Of a stretch of DNA of 64,000 bases, positions 7,434 through 63,930 are shown in pieces. The notes under the pieces are model-generated. The model saw nothing but the letters and a program-made list of their open reading frames with translations. It ran no database searches and was not told the DNA's origin. Origin of the DNA: Deltaproteobacteria bacterium. GTDB taxonomy: Bacteria; Desulfobacterota; Desulfobacteria; Desulfobacterales; G020354645. The translations under genes and the position numbers were made by a program. Position 1 is the first letter of the stretch. Each line of letters begins with the position of its first letter. The DNA lies in NCBI GenBank assembly GCA_020354645.1, contig CP070652.1, positions 4,192,629-4,256,628 of the forward strand, in the 5' to 3' direction.

Positions 7434-7462
7434 AATATTTATTTTTTTCTAAATTTTGTCAA
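7434..7462 (-). promoter_or_regulatory. Probable sigma-70 promoter of the rplU operon
   Basis: On the minus strand a perfect -35 TTGACA (7457-7462) is followed after 17 bp by AATATT (7434-7439), which matches 4 of 6 consensus -10 bases. It lies about 55 bp upstream of the rplU start, in the divergent gap with the MOSC gene. Confidence 0.55.
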
Positions 7463-7584
7463 GAAAAATTATATCATTTCGTATGAATATAGTTTTTCAT
7501 GGACTTATGGATAATTATTCATATATTAACACTGGTAATCTTGTAAGCACGACTAAAATAGACCCCTTCAATGGAAATACAATC

Positions 7585-8016
7585 ATGAAAATCGCATCCA
7601 TCGCTGTCAGCAAAAAAAAAGGCACTCGCAAACAATGTGTTGAGCAGGCATTACTTGTGAAGGATTTCGGTATTAAAGGAGACGCCCATGCCGGAAAATG
7701 GCACCGGCAAGTGAGCTTTCTGGCTACTGAAAGCATCGATCGATCGAAAAATATGGGCCTTGATGTAACCTTTGGTGATTTTGCCGAAAATATTGCAACA
7801 ACAGGGATCGAATGGAAACAAGTTCCCATCGGAACAAGATTTAGACTCGGCAAAGAAGTGCTGGTTGAAATTACCCAGATCGGCAAAGAATGCAAAAACA
7901 GATGTGCCATTTACTACCAGGCAGGTGATTGTATCATGCCGCGGGAAGGCGTATTTGCCAAAGTAGTTAAGGGCGGTATCATCCGTTGCGGTGATGAAAT
8001 CAAAGAATTAAAATAG
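7585..8016 (+). CDS. MOSC domain protein
   Basis: MOSC domains (molybdenum-cofactor sulfurase C-terminal) bind molybdenum cofactor or sulfur through a conserved cysteine. Small stand-alone members are common in anaerobes near molybdenum-enzyme genes. The 143-residue product has GIKGDAHAG, the FGDFAENIAT segment, an IGTRFRLG strand and the late cysteine motif IGKECKNRCAIY that matches the family active-site cysteine. The open frame extends upstream to 7456, but family similarity begins at MKIASIAVSKK, so the ATG at 7585 is chosen. A truncated fdhD follows, which also points to molybdenum enzyme maturation. The specific substrate is unknown. Confidence 0.85.
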   Translation: MKIASIAVSKKKGTRKQCVEQALLVKDFGIKGDAHAGKWHRQVSFLATESIDRSKNMGLDVTFGDFAENIATTGIEWKQVPIGTRFRLGKEVLVEITQIGKECKNRCAIYYQAGDCIMPREGVFAKVVKGGIIRCGDEIKELK

Positions 8017-8085: not shown

Positions 8086-8388
8086 GTGAATATACTTCCG
8101 AAGTATCAGGTCATCTGCTGGAATAAAACCTCCAGAACGACTACCCATCGAGATCTTATTCGGAAAGAACCCTTGTCCATTTGGATTCAGGGGAAACCAT
8201 ACTCTGTTGTCCTGCGTACCCCCGGCGATGAAATCGCGCATGTGGCCGGTTTTTGCCTTTCAGAGGGGATCATTGACACGCTGGCTGATTGTGTCACCAT
8301 TGCATATTGTGACGAGACCGATACCAATGTGGTCACCATCACCCTGAAATCCACAAGATTAAAAAAAATATCCGATCATCTCGACTGA
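8086..8388 (+). pseudogene. fdhD: Truncated FdhD (formate dehydrogenase sulfurtransferase), N-terminal part only
   Basis: FdhD transfers sulfur from a cysteine desulfurase to the molybdenum cofactor of formate dehydrogenase. Intact proteins are about 260-280 residues. This frame gives only 100: a GTG start after a GAGGGGG ribosome site, RKEPLSIWIQGKPYSVVLRTPGDE, then the FCLSEGII motif typical of the family. It stops just before the CGxCG cysteine loop that carries out the chemistry. The sequence after the stop does not resume FdhD similarity in any frame seen, so this is a 3' truncation and not a single frameshift or a selenocysteine codon. A functional copy would be expected elsewhere in the genome. 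Confidence 0.8.
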
Positions 8389-8671
8389 GCTCGTCACAGG
8401 CGGGCCGAGGTCGAGTTCTTTTGATTTATCCCTGTGCAGTCCCGCTTTCAGCGGGATCCCCAAAATGGTCGCCGGCGCGAGCAAATGGCTTTCAAACCGC
8501 TGTAACACTTTTTAAACTTATTTGTGGGACATGACACTAGAAGTGGTTTCAAAATAACGTTCCAAAAAGTTACGGTACAAGGCAGCCCGGCTAAGGGCTA
8601 ATTCAATCGGAATATATTTTTGAGAATCACGCCAATCATTCTCTAGGGCCAACCGGCCCCGAAGAACACTC
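8389..8671. other. Gap between fdhD remnant and permease
   Basis: No convincing full gene. A GTCCCGC/GCGGGAT hairpin lies near 8438-8458. On the minus strand a stretch of roughly 50 codons is open and ends at a TAA at 8518-8520; its composition looks protein-like (contains LENDWRDSQKYIP and FLERYFETT). It has no clear start or recognised family. Part of this stretch (about 8552-8636) resembles 57128-57206 downstream of the tartrate-dehydrogenase-like gene. Confidence 0.35.
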
Positions 8672-9826
8672 TCAGGCAGGTCCGCAATCAGATATTTCGG
8701 TTACAGGTTCATTTTTTGGTGTTGGCGTGGGCCGGATATCGTGGCGGCCGGATTTTTTAAATTTGAAGCTTGCGGTGAGACTGGCAGCCACCGGCTTTAT
8801 TGACAGCAGTAACAGTATCAGAGTCCCGGCCAATGAAACCCAAGGGGGCATAATTTCGGATGCCTGGCCGATCATCGCCCGGGCAGAAATATTAAAGATC
8901 GCATAAACGTGATCCAAGACCAAGCCGAAAAAGACAGCTGAAACAGCAATGGCGGCCAGATAAATTGCAGTGGCACGCCGGCCAAGGATACCCAGCATTA
9001 CGGTGAGTGATGCAACGTTGGTAGCAGGACCGGCCAGTAAAAATACCAGCGCGGCCCCCGGACTGATTCCCTTGAGTATCAGCGCTGCAGCAATGGGGGT
9101 AGAGGCAGTCGCGCAAATATATAACGGAATACCGACGGCCAGCATCACCAGCATGGTCGGCAGACCACCGCCGAGGTACCGCGTGAAAATATCATCCGGA
9201 ATGATGGCTGTAATCAATCCGGCCAGCAGCAGACCCAGAAAAAACCAGCCTGCCAGATCGCTCCAAAAATCGGTAAAGGCATAGCGAACCCCGGAGGTCA
9301 CCCTTTCTGTAAAAGAGTGATGGCTTTTGTGGGTTTTAGGATCACAATTAATGCCATCGCAGCAACCGTCCACCGGGCAGGACAGATCCGGAATTGCAGG
9401 TTTTTCGGCCTCCTGATGATGAAAAACATTTTCGGCTATCCCGGCTGCCGCAGACGTGAAAAACGCTACAACGGGCCGGGCGATGGTCATAATGGGATCC
9501 AACAACGCATACGTGATGGCAATGGAATCCACCCCCGATTCCGGGGTGGAGATCAAAAACGCCGTCATGGCGCCCTTGTTGGCCCCCTGTTTCTGCAGCG
9601 ACACGGCCGCAGGCAGCACCCCGCAGGATCACAAGGGTATCGGTATGCCCAGCAAAGCCGCTTTAAAAACCGATCGGATCCGGCCTTGTCCCAGGTGCCG
9701 GGCCACGGAGTTCGGGTTGAGAAACACCCGCAGCAGGCCGCTGACCAACAACCCGAACAAAATATACACCGAAGACTCCAACAGCAGGTGCCAGGCTTCC
9801 AAGAAACTATCCAAAATAAACCCCAT
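8672..9826 (-). CDS. SO_0444-type Cu/Zn efflux permease, predicted selenoprotein (Sec66)
   Basis: Polytopic inner-membrane permease of the UPF0718/DUF318 type, whose SO_0444-like members are linked to Cu/Zn efflux. An in-frame UGA (9629-9631) splits the frame. Read as selenocysteine it gives a 384-residue protein in which the conserved CSCGVLPAAVSL motif becomes U-SCGVLPAAVSL. The downstream half continues with QGANKGAMTAFLISTPESGVDSI, the family signature. A Cys/His-rich loop (about residues 130-165: HHQE, CPVDGCCDGINC, HKSHH) looks metal-binding. The ATG at 9826 has a GAGGTGG ribosome site. It follows an ArsR-type regulator by 37 bp, so it is probably metal-induced. Alternative reading: a nonsense mutation, less likely because the frame is preserved, the UGA replaces a conserved cysteine, and a SECIS-like hairpin follows. 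Confidence 0.8.
9593..9631 (-). promoter_or_regulatory. UGA codon and bacterial SECIS-like hairpin in the metal permease gene
   Basis: On the minus strand the UGA (9631-9629) is followed, 17 nt later, by a 7-bp stem (9606-9612 with 9593-9599, one G-U pair) closing a 6-nt loop CGUGUC. A loop with G in its first two positions followed by U, 16-37 nt after UGA, fits the known bacterial SelB-binding element. Confidence 0.72.
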
Positions 9827-9863: not shown

Positions 9864-10238
9864 TTACTCCCTTACATGCTCGAGACCGATGTTCAGCAGT
9901 TGGGAAACATGTTCGTCGTCCAAAGCGTAATAAATTACCTGGCCATCACGGCGTTTTTTGACCAGGGCCAGATCTTTCAATCGGCGCAGTTGATGCGATA
10001 CGGCAGATTCACTCAACCCGAGAAAAGCGGCCAGGTCACACACACACATTTCAACGTTTCTGAGCGCCATCACGATTTTCAAACGGTTGGGGTCTCCCAT
10101 GACTTTATAAGTCAGCGCCAGACGGTCCAGCTCATTTTCTGAGATGGTTTTTTTGCGGGCCTGCTCAACGCGATCCAGGTGAACAACCCGCACCCGACAA
10201 CCGTCTTCTTCCAGAAACTTGGCCTTCGCCGAACTCAC
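9864..10238 (-). CDS. ArsR/SmtB-family metal-responsive repressor
   Basis: Winged-helix DNA-binding repressor of 124 residues. It contains the ArsR-family ELCVCDLA-like metal site as EMCVCDLA, then the recognition helix SESAVSHQLRRLKDLALV and the beta-wing KKRRDGQVIYYAL. An extra N-terminal cysteine (GCRVRVVH) resembles CadC-type sensors that combine an N-terminal ligand with CxC in helix alpha-3, suggesting soft or thiophilic metal ions (Cd, Pb, Zn or similar). It is transcribed 37 bp ahead of the metal permease and almost certainly controls it and itself. Confidence 0.9.
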   Translation of the reverse strand: MSSAKAKFLEEDGCRVRVVHLDRVEQARKKTISENELDRLALTYKVMGDPNRLKIVMALRNVEMCVCDLAAFLGLSESAVSHQLRRLKDLALVKKRRDGQVIYYALDDEHVSQLLNIGLEHVRE

Positions 10239-10398: not shown

Positions 10399-11556
10399 TT
10401 ATGCGCGAACTTCTTCCTTCACCGATACGGCAATCTTGAAAAGGGCTGTCAAAACAAAAAATCCTGTGGCCCATACACCCAGGGAAATCAAAATTTCGGG
10501 GATTGTCGGGATATATTCATTGACATGATGTAAGGGGTTGGGAACAAACCCTCCGGAAATCATTCCCAGTCCTTTGTCGATCCAGGTGCCGGCAAAAACG
10601 GTCACGCAGGCTACTGCCAGTACACCTTCATTTTTGCGCGTAATCGGATTGATCAGCAGGATAATACTCAATACCATCAGTGCCAGAGAGATCCACATCC
10701 AGCCCACATAAGCACCCTGGCCGTAAAGTCCGGTAAAAAGGTATTTGAAATGGTCCATGTGTTCCGGGATCTGGCTGTAAAAAACGGTGAAAATCTCACA
10801 CAAAAAGAAAAAGACATTCAAGCAGATGGCATACGCAATAATTTTAGCGAGGGTTTGTATCTGCTCTTTACCCGGATCAAAATTGGTCGTCTTGCGGATA
10901 ATCAGGCAAATAAGTACCAGCAAGGCCGGACCGGATGCAAAAGCTGAAGAAAGAAAGCGGGGGGCCATAATGGCCGTCAGCCAAAATCCCCTGCCGGGCA
11001 ATCCGGAGTACAAATAGGCGGTAACCGTATGAATACTGATGGCCCATGGAATCGATATATAAATAAGCGGTTTTAACCAGGATTGATAATGGATATTGTT
11101 GCGCTCTGCTTCCAATACATTCCAACCGATAACGATATTTAAAAACAGGTAACCGTTAAGAACAATTGCATCCCAGAAGAGAACCGAATTCGGGGTCGGG
11201 TACAATAAAATGTTGATAGCCCGCATCGGCTGACCAAGGTCTACAATAATGAACAGCCCGCACATAACAACGGCGGCAATGGCCAGAAATTCCCCCAGAA
11301 TGGTCACCTTGCCGAATGCTTTGTAGTCATGCAGGTAATAAGGCAAGACCACCATGACTCCTCCGGCGGCCACACCGACTAAAAAGGTGAACTGGGCGAT
11401 ATAAAATCCCCACGAGACATCTCTGCTCATGCCGGTGATTCCCAGCCCGAAGCTCAACTGTTTTAAATAGAACCCTAAGCCGATGGTGATGACAATGAGC
11501 AGAGCTGTTATCCATCCGTAGTATTTCTTGCTTCCTTTTAGCGCTAGTTCAAGCAT
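10399..11556 (-). CDS. dsrP: DsrP, NrfD-family integral membrane subunit of DsrMKJOP
   Basis: Membrane subunit of the sulfite-reduction-associated electron transfer complex, thought to exchange electrons between menaquinol and DsrO/DsrJ on the periplasmic side. The 385-residue protein has about ten hydrophobic segments typical of NrfD/PsrC proteins. The N-terminus MLELALKGSKKYYGW matches DsrP. The ATG at 11556 is chosen over an upstream GTG because GAGGT lies at correct spacing. It is the last gene of the operon, 7 bp after dsrO, and is followed by a strong terminator. Confidence 0.93.
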   Translation of the reverse strand: MLELALKGSKKYYGWITALLIVITIGLGFYLKQLSFGLGITGMSRDVSWGFYIAQFTFLVGVAAGGVMVVLPYYLHDYKAFGKVTILGEFLAIAAVVMCGLFIIVDLGQPMRAINILLYPTPNSVLFWDAIVLNGYLFLNIVIGWNVLEAERNNIHYQSWLKPLIYISIPWAISIHTVTAYLYSGLPGRGFWLTAIMAPRFLSSAFASGPALLVLICLIIRKTTNFDPGKEQIQTLAKIIAYAICLNVFFFLCEIFTVFYSQIPEHMDHFKYLFTGLYGQGAYVGWMWISLALMVLSIILLINPITRKNEGVLAVACVTVFAGTWIDKGLGMISGGFVPNPLHHVNEYIPTIPEILISLGVWATGFFVLTALFKIAVSVKEEVRA

Positions 11557-11563
11557 AACCACC

Positions 11564-12355
11564 TCACACTATGTAGTAAACAGCCGGATCGGTTCCCAAT
11601 GCCTGTTTACGTCGAATGGTGTAGTTCGTTTTTATTAGCTTCCTGACTTCCGACTCGGGATCGTACAGATCTCCGAACATCAAGGCGCCGTTGGATGCCT
11701 CCACGCAGGCAGGCATTTGACCCACAGCCAACCGCTCCGCACAGAAATTGCACTTTTCGACCACGCCTTTCATGCGCGTGGGAAATTGTTTATTTATCTT
11801 GGTAATGAACGGTCGCGGATCTCTGAAATTAAAACTCCTGGCACCAAAGGGACAGGCCGCCATACAGAACCTGCATCCGATGCACCGGTGAAAATCCATC
11901 AATACAATACCGTCGCTTTCTCGTTTAAAGGTTGCCTTGGTCGGGCAGGCACGCACACAAGGGGGGTTTTCACAATGATTGCAAAGTACCAGGAAGGGTG
12001 TGTGCTCGACTTTCTCACTGATAAATTTGGATGCTTTCATAGGAAAAGCATTGTGGTATTCTTCCTCCCAGATCCATTTGATTTCATGCCGCTTATTTTC
12101 AAATTTGGGAACATTATGTATTTTATGGCAGGCCTTGATAAGCGGCACCATATCTTCTGCTGAATTGAACTTCCGTGTATCGATCACCATGGCCCATTGT
12201 CTTGCGATCAGGGCCTCAGCACCTTTTTGGGTTTGAGGCTCGGGCAGGGTATCCTGCGCTTGCTCTTTGGCAAAGGCATCCAGAACCGGCTTGGTGCTCA
12301 AACCCAACGCTGAAAGCCCGGCGATTTTAAAAAAAATTCTTCGGCTGCTTTCCAT
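11564..12355 (-). CDS. dsrO: DsrO, periplasmic Fe-S subunit of DsrMKJOP
   Basis: Ferredoxin-like subunit with several 4Fe-4S clusters working with DsrP and DsrJ at the periplasmic face. The 263-residue protein opens with a twin-arginine signal (SSRRIFFKIAGL), so it is exported folded by Tat. Cluster motifs include CNHCENPPCVRACP, CIGCRFCMAACP and CNFCAERL with a distant cysteine (PACVEA). The ATG at 12355 overlaps the dsrJ stop (TGATG); a GTG one codon upstream is an alternative start. Confidence 0.93.
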   Translation of the reverse strand: MESSRRIFFKIAGLSALGLSTKPVLDAFAKEQAQDTLPEPQTQKGAEALIARQWAMVIDTRKFNSAEDMVPLIKACHKIHNVPKFENKRHEIKWIWEEEYHNAFPMKASKFISEKVEHTPFLVLCNHCENPPCVRACPTKATFKRESDGIVLMDFHRCIGCRFCMAACPFGARSFNFRDPRPFITKINKQFPTRMKGVVEKCNFCAERLAVGQMPACVEASNGALMFGDLYDPESEVRKLIKTNYTIRRKQALGTDPAVYYIV

Positions 12356-12756
12356 CACTCTTTCTCCTTCGGGTTATCAATATGACAATCCCAGCAGTAG
12401 GGTCTGACCGAGGCATAGTTGTGGCATCGGTCGCAAAATTCAGCCTTGTTTGAGTGACAATCCAAGCAGGTGTTGGAAAGACTCATCGTAAATTCCTTCC
12501 CCTTGCTGTTGACGTATATCCTCTCGGCATTTCGCACAACCGAATGCCGCCAGAGATCAAGGACCCTCATATGCTCGGCTGTCATATAATCCGTTGAGCG
12601 CACACACTCTTTGGCCGCTTTGGCTTTCTCGGTCAGCACGAGTTCGGGAGCCGGCTGCGCTGACCCCGCATTAACAAATATGTTGTAGAGAAAAGGAGAA
12701 AACAAAATGATAAGAAAAATTAGTAAACCTGCAATAATGATTTTTTTATCCTTCAT
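12355..12756 (-). CDS. dsrJ: DsrJ, membrane-anchored triheme cytochrome c
   Basis: Small periplasmic cytochrome of the DsrMKJOP complex. The 133-residue product has one N-terminal membrane anchor (residues 5-27) and three CxxCH heme sites: CLDCH, CDRCH and CWDCH. Family DsrJ proteins are known for unusual heme ligation (His/Met, His/His and a His/Cys type heme), and a candidate cysteine ligand is present in KECVRS. The open frame runs upstream to 12801, but the ATG at 12756 follows GGAGGAAG and overlaps the dsrK end, so it is preferred. Confidence 0.92.
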   Translation of the reverse strand: MKDKKIIIAGLLIFLIILFSPFLYNIFVNAGSAQPAPELVLTEKAKAAKECVRSTDYMTAEHMRVLDLWRHSVVRNAERIYVNSKGKEFTMSLSNTCLDCHSNKAEFCDRCHNYASVRPYCWDCHIDNPKEKE

Positions 12757-14389
12757 CAGCTTCTTCCTCCGTCTGACCCTCGATTCCCGGCAGCGGTTCA
12801 CCGCGCAGGTCCGTATCTCGTTCGTTTTGCCCGGGCAGGTTCAAGGCATTGGCCACCATCTCGTGAATGCCGGTGACATCGACACCGGGAACCCAATAAT
12901 CCATAAGGTCCGGCAGCACGGCTCTGTCAATGGCACAAATGCAGGCAAGCATATTTACGCCATGTTTTTCATGAACGTATTTGACCGCATTGGCCCGCGG
13001 CAACCCCCCCGCCATCCGCAGTTCCATATTCTCACCGGCATTCAGTCCTGATCCACTGCCGCAGCAAAAGGTCGATTCCCGGATAGTATTTCTCGGCATC
13101 TCATAAAAATGATTACACACGTTTTGAATTACATAACGGGGTTCTTCAAAGATTCCCATACCGCGCGATGTATTGCAGGAATCATGAAAGGTTACTTTGA
13201 GATGGTCGTTCCGGCTGGGATCGAGGTCGAGTTTGCCGTGCTTGATAAGATCAGACGTAAATTCGGTAATATGAACCATCTTGGTGGATTTGGCGTTTTC
13301 AAATTTAGTACCGGTAATCGGCGAAACCGGTTCTTCCAAAAAATCAGCCGGACCGTTCATGGTATCCATGTACTGATGGATGACCCGCCACATGTGCCCG
13401 CATTCACCGCCCAGGATCCATTTCACCCCGAGTCGCTTGGCTTCGGCATACATCTTGGCGTTAAGCCGTTTCATCATCTCATGGGAAGTAAAAAACCCGA
13501 AATTCCCTCCCTCGGAAGCGTAAGTACTCCAGGTGATGTCGAATCCGTAATTCTCCTTTAAAAAGTGAAATAACATCATGTATCCCATACACGTGTAAGT
13601 CCCCGGATCGGCAAAAACATCACCGGAAGGGGTAACGAACAGGATGTCGGCACCCTTCTTGTTAATTTGAGGCTCCAGCCTGACGCCGGTAATATCTTCG
13701 ATTTCATCTGCGAAGAAGTCGAGCATATCCTTGTACGCATGGGGCTGGATGCCCAAATGGTTGCCGGTTCGGAAACAATTTGCCACGGGGGTTATTATCC
13801 AGTCGATGTTAAGCCCTAATAAATTCAATAATTCGCGACCCATAATGGTGATTTCGGCAGTATCGATGCCATAGGGGCAAAAAACAGAACAGCGCCGACA
13901 TTCCGAACACTGAAACAGATAAGACCACCACTCTTTGAGCACGTCTATGGTCATCGGCCGGGCACCGTTTAGCTTGCCCAGAATTTTACCGATTTTCGAA
14001 AAATCATTTCGATACACCGAGCGCAGCAGCTCAGCCCTCAGCACCGGCATATTCTTAGGATCCCCGGTACCGATAAAATAATGACACTTGTCGGCACAAG
14101 CCCCGCATCTTACGCAGATATCCATGAAAACCCTGAAAGATCTGAATCTTTCCAGTCGTTCTTTGAAGCCCTCATGAAGAATCTCCTGCCAGTTTTCAGG
14201 AAGCTGCCAGTCTTCATCAAAACAGCTCCAGGTTCGCGGGTTGGGAAATCCCACTGCTTCAAGGCTTTTGGGATTCCCGGCATAACAGGCAATCCCCTTT
14301 CTGATTTCAACCGGTGAATCCATCCAACCCGCTGAGGGCGGACGATGATCTACCTTTAGCATTTCTTCAGGTGTTGGAAGGTCTGACAT
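12746..14389 (-). CDS. dsrK: DsrK, HdrD-like catalytic Fe-S subunit
   Basis: Cytoplasmic subunit related to heterodisulfide reductase HdrD, proposed to reduce the DsrC trisulfide or disulfide using quinol electrons from DsrM. The 547-residue protein has two N-terminal 4Fe-4S motifs (CVRCGACADKC, CSECRRCSVFC) and the C-terminal CCG-type motifs CHDSCN and CCGSGSG that bind the noncubane-type cluster. It lies 3 bp after dsrM, and its end overlaps dsrJ by 11 bp. Full length with all cysteine ligands visible. Confidence 0.95.
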   Translation of the reverse strand: MSDLPTPEEMLKVDHRPPSAGWMDSPVEIRKGIACYAGNPKSLEAVGFPNPRTWSCFDEDWQLPENWQEILHEGFKERLERFRSFRVFMDICVRCGACADKCHYFIGTGDPKNMPVLRAELLRSVYRNDFSKIGKILGKLNGARPMTIDVLKEWWSYLFQCSECRRCSVFCPYGIDTAEITIMGRELLNLLGLNIDWIITPVANCFRTGNHLGIQPHAYKDMLDFFADEIEDITGVRLEPQINKKGADILFVTPSGDVFADPGTYTCMGYMMLFHFLKENYGFDITWSTYASEGGNFGFFTSHEMMKRLNAKMYAEAKRLGVKWILGGECGHMWRVIHQYMDTMNGPADFLEEPVSPITGTKFENAKSTKMVHITEFTSDLIKHGKLDLDPSRNDHLKVTFHDSCNTSRGMGIFEEPRYVIQNVCNHFYEMPRNTIRESTFCCGSGSGLNAGENMELRMAGGLPRANAVKYVHEKHGVNMLACICAIDRAVLPDLMDYWVPGVDVTGIHEMVANALNLPGQNERDTDLRGEPLPGIEGQTEEEADEG

Positions 14390-14392
14390 TTC

Positions 14393-15472
14393 TTACTCCT
14401 TTTCCTCTGATTCTTCTGGAGTCGCTTCAGCAGGCTGTGTATCGACGGGTTGTCTATCAACCGGCAGTCCAGCCTCAATCATTTTCTCTCTGAATTCATC
14501 TTCATACTCATCGTATGTGTGAACCTTAACCGGATAATTCCAGGGATTAACGTGCCTTCTAGCCCGGGTATCCGTGGTCATGTTTCTGGTTGGACTCAGG
14601 AAAATCCCTCCCAGGTGCATCAACTTACTGAACGGAAAGTAGGCCAGCAGTATACTGACAAAAAATACATGGACATAAAAAATGGGGCTGACCCCTTCCG
14701 GAATTGTAGGCCTAAAAGAAACAAGACCCATCGTGAGTTCTTTGGCTGCCGTAACATCAATTTTAGCGTAATAACGCATTAGGACCCCGGTAAAGGCAAT
14801 GCCGAAAATCAAGAAGAGAGGGAAATAGTCGGAAGCCAGCGATATATATTTAACATTCGAAACGAAAATTCTTCTCAGAAAAAGATAGGTTACCGCCAGC
14901 AGTAGAACCAGGCCGGATAGATATACGCCCGGCACCCCAATTTGGATAATATCCGTCAAAAATTCTACCCGGAAGAAACTATCCACATTTTCCACCAGCT
15001 GAACAACAACCGGCACCGGATTTGTAAAAAAGCGCAAATGCCTGAACAGCACCGTGAAAAAAGCCCAGTGAAATGCCAATGCTCCCAACCATAGAAAAAT
15101 TTCCAGCTGATAGGAAAGCTTGGTTCCCTCCTTTATTTTCATGCGGGTATTTCTAAACAAAGAACGGAAAAACGCAATTTCAAGAATCATCCGTAAAACA
15201 ACCCCGCCGCTGGTGGACGGACAATCCACCTTGTCATCAGTGATCCAGGGCAATGATTTTTGTTGGCCGGCCGTCGTGGTTATACGGAATGGTACTGCTG
15301 AACGCGACCAGTCCATGATGCGGTATATGAAACCAGTAATGAAAGTGACAAAGGCCAGGTAGGGGATGATGATTCCAAAAACGACTTGAAGTCCGGCCGC
15401 CTCAACTCCTACATAGGCAAGCAAAAACAACACCACAACCGCTAGGAGTGAAACAATATACTTTGCATTCAT
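14393..15472 (-). CDS. dsrM: DsrM, NarI-like cytochrome b membrane subunit
   Basis: Diheme cytochrome b that oxidises menaquinol and passes electrons to DsrK. The 359-residue protein has an N-terminal hydrophobic hairpin (about 1-50), a soluble linker, then four further membrane segments of the NarI/HdrE type with histidines placed in the helices (HWAFFTVLFRHLRF region and later FYVHVFFVSIL). The tail is acidic and proline-rich. The start is preceded by GAGGTG. It is the first dsr gene, 180 bp downstream of the RsbRD_N-like gene. Confidence 0.94.
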   Translation of the reverse strand: MNAKYIVSLLAVVVLFLLAYVGVEAAGLQVVFGIIIPYLAFVTFITGFIYRIMDWSRSAVPFRITTTAGQQKSLPWITDDKVDCPSTSGGVVLRMILEIAFFRSLFRNTRMKIKEGTKLSYQLEIFLWLGALAFHWAFFTVLFRHLRFFTNPVPVVVQLVENVDSFFRVEFLTDIIQIGVPGVYLSGLVLLLAVTYLFLRRIFVSNVKYISLASDYFPLFLIFGIAFTGVLMRYYAKIDVTAAKELTMGLVSFRPTIPEGVSPIFYVHVFFVSILLAYFPFSKLMHLGGIFLSPTRNMTTDTRARRHVNPWNYPVKVHTYDEYEDEFREKMIEAGLPVDRQPVDTQPAEATPEESEEKE

Positions 15473-61365: not shown

Positions 61366-63930
61366 TTAAGCGTTTTTTCGCAACCAGCGTATGCTGTTGG
61401 ATTTGCACTCAGCGCAAGTGCGTTCGGTCTCAACATTGAAAATACCGGCCCAGCTGTGACCGCATCTAAGGCACACAAAATCAGCTTCTTGATTCTCATT
61501 GATGTCTTTATCGGTGCGGGGTCTGGGGACCCGGGCCTTGGCTAACAGGGTACGGGTTTGCTCCAGCTCTTCACGTGTGACTGTTTTGCGCTTATTGTCT
61601 GTCTCCTTCATAATGGCCTGCCAGCGGAGACCTTCTGCAGCGGAGCACCATTCGAGAAGCAGCCGCTGCGGACGAATCCCGGACTTCTCCAAACCGTCCC
61701 AAAGCCCTTCGACTCGCCGAACGGTGTTGCGGTTGGCGTCAATATAATGACAATCAGCATAGTGGCATCCGGAAACCAGTACAACCGGTGCGCCTTTTTG
61801 GAAGGCGTACCACACAAACTCAGGGTTGACACGTGCAGAGCACATGGTGCGAATGATGCGGGCACTGGGCGGATATTCCATACGGCTGACACCGGCCGTA
61901 TCGGCACCGGCATACGAGCACCAATTACAGGCAAACGTCACAACCTTTTCATGCGGATCTTTTTCTAGAATGGCGTCTATCTGAGCGTAAATCGCTTGAT
62001 CCGAGAAGTGTCTCATTCCAATAGCGCCATATTTGCACTCGGCAGCGCAACAGCCGCAACCGGAACATGCGGCACTGATTACTTTAGGGGCCTGTTTCTT
62101 TTGCCAGGTTATTGCGCCAAATGGACATGCCCTTGCACACAGCCCGCATTTGGAGCATTGTTCGTCAAAGACCACTGCAGTTATGGCTTCAACCGAGAAC
62201 TCTCCTTTGTTCAGCAGAATGGATGCACGAGAACTTGCAGCGCTGGCCTGAGTTACGCTTTGCCGCACATCTTTAGGGCTTTCAACTGCTCCTGCAATAA
62301 AGACACCTTTGGTCGGTGTATCAACCGGACGCAACTTCGCATGGGCCTCCTTCAGAAAACCGTCGGGTGACTTTGAAAGACTTACCATCTGCCGGATCGA
62401 TTCGGTTGCTATGGCCGATGTGGCACCAACAGCCAAAACCAGCATGTCAAACTCATAGTTTTCAATGCGTTTATCGGTGGTGTTCTCAACCGTTACCAAC
62501 AAATTACCGCTCGAGGCGTCCTCGCGCACCTCACCCGGCAGGCCTCTGACGTAACGGACGCCGCGACTTCTGGTCCGCATTAACAGTTCTTCAAACCCTT
62601 TTCCGTAGGCTCGCAAGTCAATGTAAAAGACCATAATGTCAGAGTCCGGATAATTATCCATCAAATACTGCGCATCCTTGATGGTATTCATGCAGCAAAT
62701 ATTGGAGCAATAGGGGTTGCCCCGCTGTGGATCCTGAGTTCGCGAACCGACGCATTGAACAAAGCCGATGCGTCGGGGTCGCTTTAAATCGCTGGGTCTT
62801 GCCAGATGTCCCTCCAGAGGACCACCGGTTGAGATCAATCGTTCAAACTCCAAACTGGTGACTACGTTGGTAAAGCGAGTGTAACCATATTCATCCAGAG
62901 CGCTGGGGTCGTATACATCCATTCCGGTTGCAACAATGATTGCTCCCACATCTACCTCAATATGTTCGTCTTTCATGTCAAAGTTGATGCACTGTTTCTC
63001 GCAGGCTTCCAGGCATTTTCCGCAGGCGATTGGATTCAGCCCCAGACAATCCTCGGCCGAAACAACATAAGCAGATGGCACGGCTTGGGGAAACGGGATG
63101 TAAATTGCCCGGCGACTGCTCAAGCCCATCTGATATTCATCGGGTAATACCACCGGACAGACACTGACACAATCACCGCAAGCGGTGCACTCTGCTTCAT
63201 TGACATAACGCGCTTTTTTACGAATACGGGCTTTGAAATTACCAACATAGCCCGAGACATCCTCAAGTTCCGCATTGGTCAGAAGTTCTATTTTGGGATG
63301 CCGACCGACATCCATCATTTTGGGGCCAAGGATTCAGATGCTGCACTCTATGTCGGGATAAACTTTGTCGAGCTGAGCCATGATGCCGCCAATGGACGGC
63401 TTTTGCTCCACCAAGTAAACTTGGTGCCCGGCATCGGCTAGATCAAGGGCGGCTTGCATACCGGCTACACCGCCACCGATGACCAGTGCTGCATCTGTCA
63501 CTGTTATCTGCTCCTCATCCTGCGGATAAAGCCATCGCGCCCTCGACACCGCCACTTTAAGAATGTCTTTTGCTTTCCAGGTAGCGGCCTCCCGATCCGG
63601 AGTCACCCATGAGCAGTGCTCACGGAGGTTGGCCATCTCCAGCAGATAGGGGTTGAGTCCGGCACCCTGAATACACTGGCGAAAAATCGGTTCGTAAGAC
63701 GCGGGGGAACAAGAGGCCACCACAATCCGGTTCAACTTCTTTTCAAATATCGTTCGCTGGATTTCCTGCTGACCGGGATCGGAACAGGTGTATTTATTTT
63801 TCACCGACACGACCACATCGGGTAAAGTCTCGGCGAACTCCCGCACTGTCTCGGTATTCACAAAGCCGGCGATGTTCGATCCGCAATCGCACACAAATAC
63901 CCCGATACGCAAATCTTCTTTGGTCAACAT
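61366..63930 (-). CDS. hdrA: Heterodisulfide reductase HdrA-MvhD fusion, predicted selenoprotein (Sec199)
   Basis: FAD- and Fe-S-containing subunit of the electron-bifurcating Hdr family, 854 residues when the in-frame UGA (63334-63336) is read as selenocysteine. Residues 148-190 hold the FAD motif VIGGGVAGMQAALDLADAG; the UGA falls in the conserved C-S-I-C site (CSI-U-ILGPKMM). Four-cysteine clusters follow (CTACGDCVSVCP at about 248; CGKCLEAC; CSKCGLCARACP; CSGCGCCAAEC). The tail (about 665-800) is an MvhD domain (ACNWCSYAGADT, GCHYADCHY) and ends in a zinc-ribbon-like CLRCG...CAECKS. AAGGAGG precedes the ATG. Hydrogenase-linked or formate-linked partners are outside the window. Confidence 0.92.
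63296..63336 (-). promoter_or_regulatory. UGA codon and bacterial SECIS-like hairpin in hdrA
   Basis: On the minus strand the UGA (63336-63334) is followed, 21 nt later, by a 7-bp stem (63307-63313 with 63296-63302; one G-U pair) closing a GGUC loop. The distance and the G-U-containing loop match the bacterial SelB-binding SECIS. Confidence 0.82.

Follow-up and report, generated by a model that had tools for sequence, protein, structure and literature searches.

We report an export permease of the SO_0444 family, linked to an ArsR/SmtB gene in a Deltaproteobacteria genome, that is in all likelihood translated with two selenocysteine (Sec, U) residues and would work as a U-x-C soft-metal exporter, a reading built on sequence comparison and a structural model, from which we infer Sec insertion, metal binding and the direction of transport. 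One Sec would sit in the membrane at codon 66 and the other in the C-terminal tail at codon 385, where the UGA has the appearance of the gene's stop codon. A preliminary description of this DNA was aware of no described selenoprotein in this transporter family, but one is on record: a review of 2026 (PMC13188914) lists an 'SO_0444 family Cu/Zn efflux transporter' (NF033936, UxC, 1 Sec, WP_014809615.1, GenBank annotated) and mentions it in the running text as well. Sec in the family is thus not new; the second Sec, at the apparent stop, is very likely, judging from the sequences, and seems undescribed in the literature searched. Compared at the level of the catalogue entry, the listed protein shares its family and U-x-C motif type with ours, but has one Sec where ours has two (membrane and tail) and where relatives offer a third site.

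The permease gene and its setting

Within the window, by which we mean the whole 64,000-nucleotide stretch analysed, the locus comprises the following features.

8639..9826, minus strand: coding frame of the permease (NF033936/ArsP_1) with both UGAs read as sense, 396 codons long and closed by the UGA stop at 8638-8636
9629..9631, minus strand: UGA codon 66, near-certain Sec in GIPIPL-U-SCGVLP, transmembrane site 1, a U or C column in relatives
9593..9612, minus strand: site 1 hairpin resembling a SECIS, CUGCGGC-CGUGUC-GCUGCAG, its loop 23 nt downstream of the UGA
9113..9115, minus strand: invariant Cys238 codon, GIPLYI-C-ATASTP, aligned counterpart of Sec66 within the internal repeat (coordinate derived from the frame)
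8672..8674, minus strand: UGA codon 385, apparent stop and probable second Sec, SDCGPA-U-ECSS, C-terminal tail, Cys in some relatives
8638..8667, minus strand: tail SECIS-like hairpin, inner stem GGGGCC-GGUU-GGCCCU with a lower-stem extension, from folding and covariation
8636..8638, minus strand: probable true stop (UGA) of the permease gene, from the read-on frame
9864..10238, minus strand: ArsR/SmtB metalloregulator gene directly upstream, probably in the same operon, from profile matches and relatives

The frame from 9826 to 8672 (1155 nt) is open throughout save for one internal UGA. With U read as C, its product scores 419.6 bits against NF033936 (SO_0444 Cu/Zn efflux, residues 12-344), above the curated cut-off of 300 for membership, and 154.2 bits against PF03773 (ArsP_1). 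The profile of SaoE (NF040736), like that of ArsP_1, matches over most of the length, and its score of 187 bits lies below the cut-off of 325; SaoE and ArsP permeases belong to the same superfamily. The genome, a single 5.57-Mb contig, holds one copy of the permease. In 98 of 135 relatives, an ArsR/SmtB gene precedes the permease on its strand, with a median of 32 nt between the end of the ArsR/SmtB match and the permease start.

Just upstream of the arsR-permease pair, at 10399-15472 on the minus strand, are DsrP (NF045798) and neighbours resembling the DsrMKJOP complex, which mark the host as a predicted sulfate reducer. On the other side, a truncated-looking fdhD at 8086-8388 on the plus strand encodes an FdhD/NarQ fragment of 100 aa that covers only profile positions 3-65 of 237 and adjoins a MOSC-domain gene at 7456-8016. 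An Rfam scan of the window at gathering cut-offs gave no match.

The profile matches bear on what is transported. As in ArsP/SaoE relatives, the substrate could be an organic metal or metalloid compound (methylmercury or methylarsenite, for instance) in place of Cu/Zn; this would agree with the ArsP_1 match, the weaker SaoE match and the strong binding of Hg by Sec, but we consider it rather unlikely, given that the NF033936 equivalog cut-off is exceeded and that of SaoE is not. Export of Cu/Zn is favoured by mutant fitness in Shewanella, which requires SO_0444 when stressed with Zn or Cu (PMC3219624), and by Cd/Cu induction in Nitratiruptor (PMC10092412).

Profile searches found no redox domain in the permease, and all three Sec positions considered here fall within Cys motifs of a metal-export family encoded beside an ArsR/SmtB gene. 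Both observations speak against Sec being used for redox chemistry, as a selenenylsulfide switch or in the repair of oxidised thiols, instead of as a metal ligand. Most selenoproteins are nonetheless redox proteins and a U-x-C motif is able to form a Se-S bond, and we keep a redox role as a minority possibility.

Predicted selenocysteine at codon 66

The single in-frame UGA pointed out in the preliminary description lies, as stated there, at the first Cys of the CSCGVLP motif of an SO_0444-type permease (9631-9629, codon 66). A class-wide search returned many family members that read through one TGA. In 111 aligned sequences, the column holds U in 31, C in 80 and no other residue, which answers the homologue alignment proposed as a check (U or C in 111/111), and on a FastTree phylogeny of 135 relatives this site must have switched between Sec and Cys no fewer than 14 times.

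The 7-bp stem with a CGUGUC loop that had been described 17 nt after the UGA was located at 9612-9593, the stem starting at the 17th nt and the loop lying 23 nt after the UGA. Its energy came out at -11.3 kcal/mol (z -2.6) in one calculation and -10.2 kcal/mol in another, and the suggested RNA fold bears it out in part: within a longer 56-nt stretch the hairpin is the centroid structure, yet not the minimum free energy structure. The bacterial SECIS (bSECIS) model of PMC13188914 specifies a loop of 3-9 nt with G in the first two positions, a stem of 4-16 bp, a loop 16-37 nt after the UGA and an energy of at most -7.5 kcal/mol, and the hairpins of both site 1 and the tail lie within these limits. 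Among distinct relatives, bSECIS-type hairpins at or below -7.5 kcal/mol occur in 37 of 45 UGA versions as against 31 of 126 Cys versions; the site 1 hairpin is beyond chance and tied to UGA versions. In the UGA versions it comes in two designs: in CUGC[AG]GC-CGUGUC-GCUGC[AG]G the loop lies 23 nt downstream of the UGA, and in GUGCUGCC-GGC-GGCAGCAU, found for example in Desulfopila aestuarii DSM 18488, it lies 17 nt downstream.

All four genes of the Sec machinery whose presence was to be checked are in the same genome: profile searches found selA (609 bits), selB (377 bits) and selD (362 bits), and the tRNA-Sec gene selC scores 76 bits, with the anticodon tca in ARAGORN. The selD gene (L237, C1:2058837-2059754, minus strand) itself reads through one TGA and probably encodes a Sec form of selenophosphate synthetase. 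Across the class, selB is near-universal, genomes with Cys-only permeases included, so the machinery does not discriminate between versions; the presence of selB was tried as a discriminator and rejected, with 72 of 80 genomes over the cut-off and Sec and Cys versions not separated. Because the machinery is present, Sec and Cys alternate at the exact column and the hairpin is tied to UGA, Sec at site 1, as first proposed, is strongly supported and in our reading of the sequences near certain.

A probable second selenocysteine at the apparent stop

Reading past the UGA at 8674-8672 yields ...SDCGPA-U-ECSSGPVGPRE, followed by UGA at 8638-8636, 11 residues after UGA 385. The frame to 8672 stands as first described, but its final codon, taken as a stop, probably specifies a second Sec. 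Some 34 distinct tails have a C-x(n)-U-x-C pattern in common, a cultured relative, strain NaphS2 (L133), being among those with the predicted tail Sec, and codon +2 is TGY in 31 of 34, compared with 44 of 605 other TGA-ended open reading frames in the same loci. Cys takes the place of the tail U in, among others, L028 (CGPDCDCSS), L035 (CCPTCDCSS), L105 and L030. A few tails (L058, L065) have no Cys at +2, and there the UGA may be a real stop.

Under a strict rule (5 bp or more of stem without mismatch and an [N]G[GU] loop, 16-21 nt after the UGA), 28 of the 34 tails have a hairpin, against 1.3 expected by shuffling, and six miss the rule; it is found in 1 of 10 Cys tails and 38 of 605 control ends. 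In the window, the loop of the tail hairpin is GGUU and lies 17 nt downstream of the UGA; the stem has 6 bp plus a lower part, the energy is -16.7 kcal/mol, and the stretch folds with z -4.0. An alignment of 24 tails shows 84% pairing in the inner stem, with both sides altered at four of its five pairs and a covariation score of 0.456 as against 0.236 in shuffles (0/500). The tail SECIS is stronger than that of site 1 and has the textbook bSECIS form. Seven relatives (L052, L042, L029, L034, L023, L027 and L040) have the hairpin beyond a TAG or TAA stop, so its conservation there cannot stem from coding.

These data also address whether Sec is confined to site 1, in which case UGA 8674-8672 would simply end the gene and the hairpin would be a terminator or some other 3' element. 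UGA normally acts as a stop, a T-rich stretch follows the hairpin in some relatives (L034) and the catalogued family has one Sec; against this stand the Cys at +2 in 31/34 tails, the substitution of Cys for U in relatives, the near absence of the hairpin from Cys tails (1/10), a loop and spacing that fit bSECIS, and stems that covary, which together make an ordinary stop improbable.

Sec near the C terminus is familiar from thioredoxin reductase, which ends in GCUG. Thioredoxin reductase and SaoC, which has a CU end, resemble the window permease in placing Sec beside Cys in a C-terminal tail, but they are not permeases, and the permease tail differs in its U-x-C form and in having its SECIS past the stop codon in some relatives. 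Separately, the tails of L183 and L165 end in TC-U-GA or SSC-U-AG..., with adjacent Cys-Sec near the C terminus and not U-x-C, and L165 has an 8-bp hairpin with a GGA loop.

A third site in relatives and a second gene in the window

In some relatives, site 1 is Cys and a UGA occurs in a cytoplasmic Cys-rich loop, as GG-U-GC. There are 31 distinct cases of this loop-site UGA, 24 of them with a SECIS-like hairpin, compared with 2.5 expected. Three non-redundant relatives, L047 and L227 among them, have Sec at both site 1 and the loop; L048 likewise combines a membrane USC site with a loop UGA in one permease. The loop motif is PGCG-U-P, unlike GG-U-GC, in L208, L209, L222 and L223, which come from genomes of other phylum groups.

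Across 199 non-redundant sequences, predicted Sec occurs at site 1 only in 28, at site 1 and the tail in 17, at the tail only in 16, at the loop only in 34, at site 1 and the loop in 3 and at none of them in 101, counts that are not frequencies, as the searches partly favoured TGA members and missed tails without a +2 Cys. The same UGA codon in many genomes, conservation that persists beyond it and a SECIS that tracks it leave a decaying pseudogene or sequencing error, suggested by the one in-frame stop, with next to no probability.

Other TGA-interrupted frames in a scan of the window were mostly antisense or at gene junctions, and only an HdrA2-like gene (NF040770) stood out, at 61367-63927 on the minus strand (1111 bits, cut-off 1100). 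It has an in-frame UGA at 63336-63334, in the context ECSI-U-ILGPKM, and is split by standard open reading frame calling. A hairpin, GGAUGUC-GGUC-GGCAUCC (-8.8 kcal/mol), places its loop 27 nt after the UGA, and this GGUC loop matches permease tail loops. HdrA is a known CxxU selenoprotein (PMC13188914). As a second selenoprotein gene, in all probability, within the window, it lends independent support to the reading of the permease.

Structure and proposed mechanism

AlphaFold2 with 146 sequences gave pLDDT 86 and pTM 0.84, after a poor first model built on 23 (pLDDT 57). In the later model, residue 66 falls in the break that separates helices 51-60 and 67-79; a second break, separating helices 222-235 and 239-251, holds Cys238. 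Aligned with each other, the two halves of the permease score 117 (shuffles: mean 34, highest 81), Sec66 falling on Cys238, and C66, S67, C68 and C238 are invariant in relatives when U is read as C. Confidence is low for the tail, about 360-396, which is probably disordered. A sequence search of the PDB found no homologue of the permease, and the hits from a comparison of folds (best E 0.05; TRAP/Pho90-like, TM about 0.3) are too weak to classify it.

In the mechanism we propose, SelB and tRNA-Sec would decode UGA 66 by means of the hairpin at 9612-9593, and UGA 385 by means of that at 8667-8638, with the protein ending 11 residues on. Sec66 and Cys68, at a membrane helix break and with Cys238 as repeat-symmetric partner, would form together with it a soft-metal site (Cu, Zn/Cd, perhaps Hg or As) in the transport pathway, Sec being a putative metal contact. 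The U-x-C of the disordered tail would be the intake ligand, taking metal in the cytoplasm and handing it on. More tentatively, the family may run a selenium relay, in which the U-x-C of a mobile tail, or in other clades of a cytoplasmic loop, captures soft metal for an intramembrane Sec-x-Cys site, with Sec and Cys alternating time and again at three positions of the one family and a C-terminal SECIS that can lie past the stop; we infer this relay, like Sec insertion, metal binding and export direction, from the features above. MerT, YeeE/YedE and SaoB/SaoX/SaoP (PMC13188914) also use Sec in the transport of soft metals or sulfur species, and are different protein families.

Standard annotation would end such permeases at the second UGA, and Sec codons near a C terminus are readily mistaken for stops. 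An exporter with two or three Sec sites, in every one of which Sec opens a C-x-C-type motif, would suggest that Sec can serve to bind metal and not to catalyse, and the tail SECIS that lies past TAG or TAA in some relatives offers a natural test of bacterial SECIS action outside the coding region.
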